64,000 nt of DNA from Pantoea deleyi (GTDB taxonomy: Bacteria; Pseudomonadota; Gammaproteobacteria; Enterobacterales; Enterobacteriaceae). The notes below the pieces were generated by a model. The model was not told the DNA's origin. It saw only the letters and a program-made list of their open reading frames with translations, and did not search any database. The stretch is taken from the NCBI RefSeq assembly GCF_022647325.1, contig NZ_CP071405.1, positions 2,046,001 through 2,110,000 of the forward strand. Reading direction: 5' to 3'. Below, one piece after another: positions 3,886-5,141 of the stretch. Both the position numbers and the translations under genes were made by a program. Position 1 is the first letter of the stretch. Each line of letters begins with the position of its first letter.

Positions 3886-4518
3886 CTATACCGCGTGCCG
3901 CTGACAGAACGCCTCAATGTCGTCGTTCTGAAAGTCGGCCAGATTTGCCATCAGCTTCTCCAGCGGCCAGTTCCACCAGGCGATACGCTGCAGACGGGCG
4001 GCAATGGCGGGCGAAAACCGCATCCGCAGCGGCCGGGCCGGAACGCCGCCCACCACGCTGTAGGGCGCGACGTCGCGGGTCACCACCGCGCCCGCGGCCA
4101 GCACCGCCCCATCACCGACGGTGACGCCAGGCAGCACGATCACGCCATGCCCGATCCAGACGTCATGACCGATGATCACCCGATCGGCCCGGCGGGCCGC
4201 AAAGAAGGGCCGATCGCGGCGGGCGTCGGGATGGTAATACTCCGGGCAGTAGGTGAAGCGATGCTGAGAGGCGCGATCCATCGGATGGTTCGGCGCGCCA
4301 AGGCGCACCTGGTTGGCGATAGCGCAGAAGCGCCCTACCTGGGTGTCGGCCAGGCAGCAGTGCTCGCCGACATAGGAGAAATCGCCCAGCTCGCTGTATT
4401 CCAGCAGGCTGTGCGCCAGGATTTCACACTGCTGACCCACGGTGGTTTCCCGCATCCGCACACTCTCGTCGATCCTGGTGTGGGCTAAGGGGGCAGGCAT
4501 AACGGCAACAATGGACAT
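3886..4518 (-). CDS. Left-handed beta-helix (hexapeptide) acetyltransferase, phosphonate-locus/xenobiotic type
   Basis: A 210-residue O-acetyltransferase-like protein. Hexapeptide repeats run through the middle ([13 protein letters not shown]..., then [33 protein letters not shown]). The catalytic-type histidine sits in the NHPMDR loop. The fold and the insert ending in [16 protein letters not shown] match the acetyltransferases sometimes found in phosphonate gene clusters and the chloramphenicol acetyltransferase B-like family. The ATG at 4518 follows a GGGA ribosome-binding sequence; a longer frame exists but lacks one. No phosphonate genes are nearby, so the substrate is open. It converges with the EamA-type gene, 14 bp away. 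Confidence 0.82.
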
Positions 4519-4602
4519 AGCATTCCCAATCCGGATAAGCACATCCCCTGCGACGTGCTTTTGCCGCACCACCTTATCCGCTTCTGATGACAGAGAATTG
4601 AC

Positions 4603-4635
4603 AAAGAAAAAAGGCGGAGTGGTTAGCTCCGCCTT
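4603..4635 (-). terminator. Rho-independent terminator after the TisB-like gene
   Basis: On the minus strand a nine-pair stem (AAGGCGGAG / CTCCGCCTT) is followed directly by a T-rich run (TTTTTTCTTT). It lies 15 bp beyond the stop codon of the small peptide gene, which supports a short dedicated transcript. Confidence 0.85.
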
Positions 4636-4649
4636 GTTTCAAGTTCCGG

Positions 4650-4739
4650 TTAACCTGCCTGACCGGTCAGTTGCATAAGGGCAACGATGATCTGCAAGAT
4701 GACCCGGATCAGATCCAGAATCAGCTTAGTCAGTTCCAT
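4650..4739 (-). CDS. TisB-like 29-residue membrane toxin of a type I system
   Basis: The peptide begins MELTKLILDLIR, contains IIVALMQL and ends GQAG. It is almost entirely hydrophobic with polar residues at positions 2, 5, 9, 12, 16, 23 and 27, which make one narrow polar stripe on a helix. E. coli TisB is also 29 residues, has a similar stripe, and contains LIVAALQL near the same place. A strong GGAGAAGG ribosome-binding sequence lies 5-6 bases upstream. Context supports the call: a LexA box about 210 bp upstream, a long leader, a dedicated terminator, and a divergent small RNA complementary to the leader. The expected action is inner-membrane depolarisation after DNA damage. Homology over so short a peptide is not proof, so the name is an inference from the whole layout. 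Confidence 0.8.
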   Translation of the reverse strand: MELTKLILDLIRVILQIIVALMQLTGQAG

Positions 4740-4819
4740 CACTTTCCTTCTCCTTTTTCAGGAGCGCGCTTTTCGGCAACCAGGGCTTTGACTCTACCCG
4801 CCGGGCGCCTGAGCACATC

Positions 4820-4837
4820 TTGTGGAGAGGGCTGAGC
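4820..4837 (-). promoter_or_regulatory. Predicted antitoxin-RNA pairing site in the toxin mRNA leader
   Basis: The plus strand here reads TTGTGGAGAG-G-GCTGAGC. The proposed small RNA contains TTGTGGAGAG-T-GCTGAGC at 5014-5031. As the toxin mRNA is the minus strand, the RNA would pair with this site over 17 of 18 positions. The site is about 70 nt upstream of the toxin ribosome-binding sequence, comparable with the ribosome standby region that IstR-1 blocks in the tisB message. Confidence 0.7.
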
Positions 4838-4949
4838 GGCACTCATGGTTAAAGCCACAGGCCAGCACCACCTGATGCCTGCCGGGATTTTAAAAACCTG
4901 CCCCTGGGAGCGGCCAGTCCACCATGAGGCGATACCCAACGCCCAACAC

Positions 4950-4965
4950 CTGTATAAACATACAG
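4950..4965. promoter_or_regulatory. LexA (SOS) operator
   Basis: CTGTATAAACATACAG is an exact CTGT-N8-ACAG LexA box with an A/T-rich centre. It lies between the divergent toxin and small-RNA genes. On the minus strand it overlaps TATACA, a plausible -10 element for the toxin. On the plus strand CATAAT at 4966-4971 could be the -10 of a longer, LexA-controlled form of the small RNA, as for IstR-2. Confidence 0.9.
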
Positions 4966-4979
4966 CATAATGGCGAAAC

Positions 4980-5008
4980 TTGAAATCCTTAGCCGCACAT
5001 TTTACACT
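4980..5008 (+). promoter_or_regulatory. Constitutive-type promoter of the antitoxin small RNA
   Basis: TTGAAA at 4980-4985 and TACACT at 5003-5008 are separated by exactly 17 bp, giving 5/6 and 4/6 matches to the sigma-70 hexamers. It lies outside the LexA box, so transcription would be independent of SOS, as for IstR-1. The predicted start is near 5015. Confidence 0.7.
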
Positions 5009-5014
5009 CTCTTT

Positions 5015-5111
5015 TGTGGAGAGTGCTGAGCACCTCGTCTGCCACGCGGTTACCCGCCGGGCTGGCAGACAAAAAAATAAAGGATTTGGCATCGCGCCAA
5101 ATCCTTTTTTT
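5015..5111 (+). ncRNA. IstR-1-like antitoxin small RNA (predicted)
   Basis: The predicted RNA is about 97 nt, from the promoter at 4980-5008 to a terminator ending at 5111. Its first ~17 nt are the segment complementary to the toxin leader at 4820-4837. An eight-pair hairpin follows (GTCTGCCA at 5037-5044 with TGGCAGAC at 5063-5070), then the terminator. The order of a 5' seed, an internal hairpin and a terminator, divergent from a TisB-like gene across a LexA box, matches the IstR-1 design. There is no credible ORF. The 5' end is a prediction. Confidence 0.7.
5080..5111. terminator. Bidirectional terminator (small RNA and sugar dehydrogenase gene)
   Basis: AAGGATTTGGC (5080-5090) pairs with GCCAAATCCTT (5096-5106) in an eleven-pair stem. 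It is followed by seven Ts on the plus strand and by TTTATTTTTTT on the minus strand. It can therefore end both the small RNA from the left and the dehydrogenase transcript from the right. Confidence 0.88.
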
Positions 5112-5141
5112 ATGCCTGCTCTTCCGCCCAGTGGGCAGAGG

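Follow-up and report, generated by a model that had tools for sequence, protein, structure and literature searches.

The window, a 64,000 nt stretch of the Pantoea deleyi chromosome, contains between positions 4603 and 5111 a compact group of features that a sequence-only reading had taken for a type I toxin-antitoxin locus under SOS control. The toxin strand of the locus is the minus strand, on which an ORF at 4739-4650 can be read directly, as that reading had proposed, as a peptide of 29 aa from an ATG (MELTKLILDLIRVILQIIVALMQLTGQAG); it is followed by an intrinsic terminator on the same strand (4635-4611), which is nearly invariant in the genus and has similar counterparts in plasmid relatives described below. 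All the charged and amide residues of the peptide fall within 120-200 degrees of the helix, and the peptide is predicted to be amphipathic. Across the 55 loci of the genus the peptide is 29 aa long in 54 cases and 38 aa in one, and 13 of its 29 residues are invariant; variable sites at codon positions one, two and three number 15, 4 and 20, a pattern that, to judge from the alignment, is that of coding sequence. A GTG immediately 5' of the ATG (4742-4740) is invariant across the 55 loci, and in one 29 aa row (L066) the ATG has become ATT whilst the GTG is retained; hence translation may begin at the GTG, in which case the peptide would be 30 aa long. GTG is also the start codon in most of the plasmid relatives of the toxin. 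In two genomes (loci L055 and L058, in G030 and G031) the 3' end of the toxin, with its terminator, is repeated in part around 100 bp further downstream; this copy has no start region and is a tandem remnant.

Upstream of the toxin lies a LexA box, CTGTATAAACATACAG (4950-4965), described in the sequence-only reading as perfect: its CTGT and ACAG arms are indeed exact, but the 16-mer is not palindromic as a whole. This exact 16-mer occurs once in the 4.68 Mb genome, and a box of the form [CA]TGT-N8-ACAG is found in all 55 genus loci, 44 having CTGT..ACAG and 11 ATGT..ACAG. Overlapping it on the minus strand is a putative toxin promoter, GTTTCG-17-TATACA (4951-4979), the columns of which are conserved in the genus alignment; it is a poor match to the consensus, and weak by that measure. 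The toxin mRNA would start near 4944 if this promoter is used, giving a leader of about 200 nt. Diverging from it on the plus strand is a sigma-70-like sequence, TTGAAA-17-TACACT (4980-5008), present with the 17 bp spacing that had been proposed. Its score is just 9/12 and chance alone would give 0.7 such sites in the region, so the weight of this candidate sRNA promoter lies in its conservation, the -35 hexamer being conserved in the genus.

A putative antitoxin sRNA of around 97 nt (5015-5111, plus strand) is predicted downstream of this promoter on the basis of promoter, fold and conservation. The strong intrinsic terminator anticipated at its end is present (5079-5107, plus strand), and the predicted fold of the whole RNA beats those of 200 of 200 shuffled sequences (z -5.9). 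Its 5' pairing segment (5014-5031, plus strand) and a putative standby or antisense target segment in the toxin leader (4820-4837, minus strand) match at 17 of 18 positions when both are read on the plus strand, so that they are complementary as RNA, as the sequence-only reading had recognised. By our arithmetic, complementarity of this extent is expected by chance at around 2e-5 for RNAs of this length. The predicted energy of pairing between the first 30 nt of the sRNA and the assumed toxin mRNA is -41.4 kcal/mol; the corresponding values for 500 mononucleotide-shuffled mRNAs have a mean of -27.9 and a best of -40.9 kcal/mol.

Independent variation of the two segments in related genomes had been proposed as grounds for rejecting this arrangement; instead, they covary across the 55 loci. 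The segment pairs include GTGGAGAG/GTGGAGAG, GTGAGGAG/GTGAGGAG, GTGATGAG/GTGATGAG and GTGAGGAA/GTGAGGAA, and in one row a T-to-G change just before the segment is present on both sides. No more than one row shows a difference between the two sides at any of 16 positions out of 17; at the remaining one the leader is variable and the sRNA has U almost throughout. The segments have changed together in at least four ways, counted as distinct shared states rather than as events on a tree. Mean identity of each locus's own segments is 16.4 of 17, against a mean of 15.3 and a maximum of 15.7 when partners were shuffled 10,000 times; for the 11 distinct segment pairs the values are 16.4 and 14.7, with none of 10,000 shuffles as high. 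Gene conversion between the direct repeats could in principle mimic such coordinated changes, although pairing would still have been preserved. The covariation also bears on whether the short ORF might be a by-product of a regulatory sRNA acting on other mRNAs. The good fold and strong terminator of the RNA would suit such a role, but the ORF varies as coding sequence does and the changes in the seed track the toxin leader, and we consider this explanation scarcely credible.

The locus is present in 55 of 61 genomes of the genus. Four of the six genomes from which it is absent are small (1.4-2.9 Mb, one of them only 74% complete), and the other two, at 4.5 and 5.3 Mb, are of full size. Alignment of all 55 loci defines a conserved block at approximately 4606-5117, the flanking DNA being much less conserved. 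Conservation within the block is highest for the LexA box, both pairing segments, the Shine-Dalgarno and leader hairpins, the ORF core, the toxin terminator and the two arms of the terminator of the sRNA, whilst the middle hairpin of the sRNA and the 5' end of the leader are variable. In the 30 loci fetched with 1.5 kb flanks, a GSDH-like gene was found as a neighbour in 28 and an acetyltransferase gene in 24; hence the place of the locus is mostly conserved. The neighbouring acetyltransferase gene in the window (3886-4572, minus strand) matches TIGR03308, a phosphonate-associated hexapeptide transferase family, with 255.2 bits against a cut-off of 201.65.

Two structures are predicted in the toxin leader. 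Close to the start codon, a hairpin of the form CUCCU..AGGAG (4750-4764, minus strand) would sequester the Shine-Dalgarno sequence; when 13 loci were folded, the SD-like purines came out paired in 12, L200 being the exception. Further upstream is a hairpin at 4857-4882 (minus strand), having a CAG/CUG inner stem and a GUGGUG loop, that is common to tisB and the plasmid relatives: the sequence C[AG]GGTGG[TA]GC[CT]G lies inside a stem in the toxin leaders of the window family, of the plasmid relatives and of Escherichia coli tisB. A nine-pair structure was imposed on 33 distinct rows, tisB among them; standard pairs filled 97.6% of its cells, as compared to only 24-42% for control structures slid by one to three columns. 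Five pairs change on both sides, giving 41 such cells against 14.2 in shuffled alignments, a comparison that is inflated by kinship among the 33 rows; the excess over shuffles is weak for two of the five measures of covariation, pairs and types, for which 58 and 49 of 500 shuffles were as high. L111, which has three of the five stem pairs, was counted among these rows; the L038 match (+ strand 149, two of five) was excluded as a non-toxin match, and dinQ, which can be aligned only with gaps, did not enter the pair count. According to part of the text of PMC7708055, tisB is no longer toxic when either arm of its leader stem 54-57/74-77 carries a double substitution, and compensating substitutions bring the toxicity back; the letters of that stem (GCUG/CAGC) are those of the outer stem of the hairpin in the window. 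Pairing of the GGUGG loop with a CCACC further downstream, as a second helix in the plasmid loci, was tried and dropped, the longest run having a mean of 4.91 against 4.80 in shuffled sequences.

A covariance model of the leader hairpin was built from 32 rows without tisB. The held-out E. coli tisB leader matched it over the full model length with 26.0 bits, whilst E. coli dinQ gave a partial match (12.9 bits, E 0.39), and neither motif nor model found such a hairpin at the E. coli shoB and timP loci. Among 392 genomes of the family, 110 had a match at E<=0.1, with 116 matches in all. Eighty-one of these were examined; of the other 35, nine were the best-scoring, already known matches and 26 were unfetched. 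A TisB-like peptide was found at 58 of the 81 loci; each of these 58 also has a LexA-like box with no more than one mismatch, and in 56 there is a repeat of at least 12 nt. A further 20 had no TisB-like peptide as judged by the filter, five of them having a repeat of at least 12 nt, and three (L171, L188 and L204) had no motif near the centre. Some of the matches are probably false: the other 15 of the 20 lack a repeat of this length, although L128, L166 and L183 among them may be real. Two of the five that do have one, L144 and L167, look like tisB loci with an ORF that the filter missed. At L146 (G121:C10) a match of 30.2 bits was accompanied by a CRISPR-like repeat, and no toxin ORF was found. 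By NCBIfam model NF041473, L193 is DqlB (68.3 bits), a plasmid toxin known from independent work; L166 encodes a hydrophobic peptide, MIEILNIIKMVIDIIAAILQLIDWFN, with no match to a curated family; and L200 has a hydrophobic peptide scoring 14.5 bits against TisB (cut-off 38), a LexA-like box and a 17 nt repeat. These three, together with L183, are possible further branches found by the leader model.

The resemblance to tisB/istR-1 of E. coli requires qualification. The sequence-only reading had held that the DNA outside the shared elements does not look like the E. coli locus; this is borne out by a blastn search of E. coli with 4600-4830, which found no match, but not by the leader hairpin, which resembles that of tisB. 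Searches for known families gave the following results. The curated TisB models TIGR04459, PRK14754 and PF13939, all of which match E. coli TisB, do not match the window peptide even at E<=10. No Pfam, NCBIfam or Rfam match was obtained for the toxin-antitoxin locus; istR (RF01400) was not found in the window, the E. coli istR control scoring 150.1 bits, and relaxing the Rfam threshold yielded solely sub-threshold, unconvincing matches. A search of a phage collection found no match. Profiles were also compared: a profile of 22 distinct window-family peptides (with the 38 aa variant excluded, and the row that has lost its ATG entered with M) aligned with one of 34 TisB-like peptides in hhalign over 18 columns, with a probability of 89% and a score of 25.2, the maximum score of 60 column-permuted controls being 15.5. 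In TisB, K12 is described as strictly required, and K12 and Q19 as essential, in part of the text of PMC11449926. These align with Q16 and Q23, respectively, both of which are invariant in the 55 rows; hence the arrangement of charges differs from that of TisB.

The two loci share a divergent sRNA, a LexA box at the toxin promoter, a long leader with a covarying hairpin, an antisense target far upstream of a sequestered ribosome binding site, and a 29 aa amphipathic peptide with an alignable 18-column core that includes the equivalent of Q19. However, the window peptide lacks a lysine equivalent to K12, the C-terminal lysines and D22 of TisB, the sRNA is unlike istR, and tisB sits between ivbL and emrD. 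The leader hairpin is needed for standby in tisB/istR, whereas what the window offers is the presence of the same hairpin. The locus is best called a sister of TisB/IstR, outside that curated family.

The closest relatives of the peptide are instead found at plasmid loci. DNA searches retrieved 21, 28 and 30 plasmid records, in overlapping sets, which include Rts1 (IncT), the Serratia plasmid pR28_75, and Mixta, Erwinia, Klebsiella and Pantoea plasmids; DNA identity is around 75% over the toxin 3' end. Aligned with hhalign, the window family and ten plasmid-type peptides give 95.7%, whilst the plasmid peptides compared with TisB directly give a weak 9%, so any kinship between the plasmid peptides and TisB depends on the window family as a bridge. 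Fifteen plasmid-type loci were compared besides tisB, dinQ and the window, a locus being listed if it had a repeat of at least 12 nt, a threshold that left out L038 (10 nt repeat), L114 and shoB (L115). Not all of the 15 are known to be on plasmids, as L042 is on a 6.4 Mb contig and the kind of contig is unclear for L037 and L083. In the search of the 392 family genomes with the DNA, 32 matched, mostly over 21-35 nt with E of 1e-4 to 1e-2, and these look like chance; G163, G289 and G362 from this search, and G421 from a protein search, were taken further on the basis of motif, peptide and repeat.

In each of the 15 loci the hairpin core is accompanied by a duplicated segment of 14-24 nt and by a short hydrophobic ORF, which in most cases starts with GTG and has QLTG near its end. 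Six different sequences serve for pairing among them, and in each case that of the leader matches that of the sRNA. They share with the window the C-terminal half of the peptide (mostly ..IV...QLTG), the toxin terminator, the leader hairpin, the hairpin over the Shine-Dalgarno sequence in those that were folded, and a divergent RNA with the duplicated pairing segment. They differ in being on mobile elements, in mostly starting with GTG and in lacking an exact LexA box: CTGT-N8-ACAG was found in none of the 15, and a LexA-like site with one mismatch in five, three of these being the same site inside the sRNA gene. No family model scored above its cut-off in the plasmid loci scanned, and the records examined carry no toxin annotation for them. 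The Rts1 locus (L045) adjoins a gene annotated as plasmid SOS inhibition protein A, and that on the Pantoea agglomerans plasmid pNBBC01-3 (L112) adjoins the plasmid's umuC.

This kinship raises an alternative: the chromosomal locus could be a plasmid addiction module, domesticated or selfish, with a LexA box of secondary importance, and could persist because its loss harms the cell rather than through any benefit after DNA damage. The nearest relatives of the peptide are, as described, plasmid loci, and the similarly built DqlB-agrB plasmid system is reported, in the portions of PMC12365149 and PMC12317039 available, to be an addiction module on experimental evidence. Conversely, the LexA box in 55 of 55 loci and the neighbours shared by most of the 30 suggest long vertical use, and we judge this alternative to be unlikely.

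More doubtful still is that the locus is a module of the dinQ/agrB or dqlB/agrB type rather than of the tisB type, which would have the same layout and a different toxin lineage. These systems (E. coli dinQ/agrB, NF041472; dqlB/agrB, NF041473) likewise have a small hydrophobic toxin, a divergent antisense RNA and the leader core GGTGGTGCYG. In dinQ there is in addition a LexA box with one mismatch, and its 13 nt core, ACGGGTGGTGCCG, is one of the variants that the leader-hairpin core allows and follows that box at a similar distance; the leader model also finds the DqlB locus L193, and dinQ, like most plasmid loci and possibly the window locus, starts with GTG. Nevertheless, the dinQ match of 12.9 bits covers part of the leader model, nothing like the doubled sRNAs agrA and agrB was seen in the window, and the single dqlB locus found, L193, has no LexA-like box. 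The peptide is not matched by NF041472 or NF041473 at E<=10, models that do match E. coli DinQ and L193, yet it aligns with the TisB profile as described above. A further known system, timP/timR of Salmonella and E. coli, resembles the locus in its divergent sRNA and sequestered ribosome binding site, and a long-range structure in its leader is needed for translation, as stated in part of PMC11228461; it differs in that the E. coli locus lacks the GGTGG[TA]GC core and a model match, and in that its toxin, going by the same partial text, has no SOS link.

Taken together, the architecture, the covariation of the segments, the LexA box in every genus locus, the match to the TisB profile and the leader model support the original reading of a tisB/istR-like SOS toxin-antitoxin system, the covariation and the conserved box being what argue for a type I module under SOS control. 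Judged from these sequence features, the locus is very probably a chromosomal, LexA-repressed type I module working like tisB/istR. How it would work can be outlined by carrying over LexA repression, a constitutive sRNA, a standby route, membrane action and growth arrest from E. coli studies (PMC7708055, PMC3567139 and PMC11228461, each consulted in part) to components whose presence, conservation, covariation and common leader element are read from the DNA. In an undamaged cell, LexA would keep the toxin promoter closed, and the first 18 nt or so of the sRNA would pair with the toxin leader around 65-82 nt before the hairpin-locked Shine-Dalgarno sequence. By analogy, this leader segment would be a ribosome standby site with the conserved tisB-like hairpin on its 5' flank. 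On DNA damage, cleavage of LexA would allow the toxin mRNA to exceed the sRNA, ribosomes could load at the standby site, and the toxin would be translated; the amphipathic peptide would then be expected to insert into the inner membrane, depolarising it and slowing growth. In the predicted fold of the assumed full-length mRNA the target segment is mostly paired (mean unpaired 0.24), which would fit an inactive primary transcript, and an open standby site does not follow from this single-structure fold.

The existence of plasmid relatives of like layout without an exact LexA box suggests a wider grouping by descent; this link to plasmid modules would be the more interesting result. The leader hairpin (a covarying outer stem, an inner C[A/G]G:C[U/C]G helix and a GUGG[U/A]G loop), the standby or antisense segment and the Shine-Dalgarno hairpin may together mark one superfamily of type I toxin-antitoxin systems, comprising tisB/istR, dinQ/agrB, dqlB/agrB, the window module and the plasmid modules, in which SOS toxins are plasmid addiction modules recaptured by LexA; we give this proposal an even chance. 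If true, it would mean that a translation-control leader has been kept whilst the toxin tail, antisense sequence and promoter were exchanged. No account of this locus, the QLTG plasmid family or a hairpin common to tisB and plasmid systems was found in the open-access literature searched. TisB is described as confined to the Enterobacteriaceae in part of the text of PMC11449926, and the section seen of one review (PMC4147584) notes many chromosomal pairs without clear homology to mobile elements.

With a leader that matches tisB and a peptide that matches plasmid modules, the locus bridges chromosomal and mobile systems. Through it, SOS-induced dormancy could be tested in a lineage other than the E. 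coli group, and the replacement of K12 by Q is a natural experiment on the role of the charges of TisB. The leader hairpin, in turn, is a searchable RNA element through which small toxins missed by protein searches can be found.
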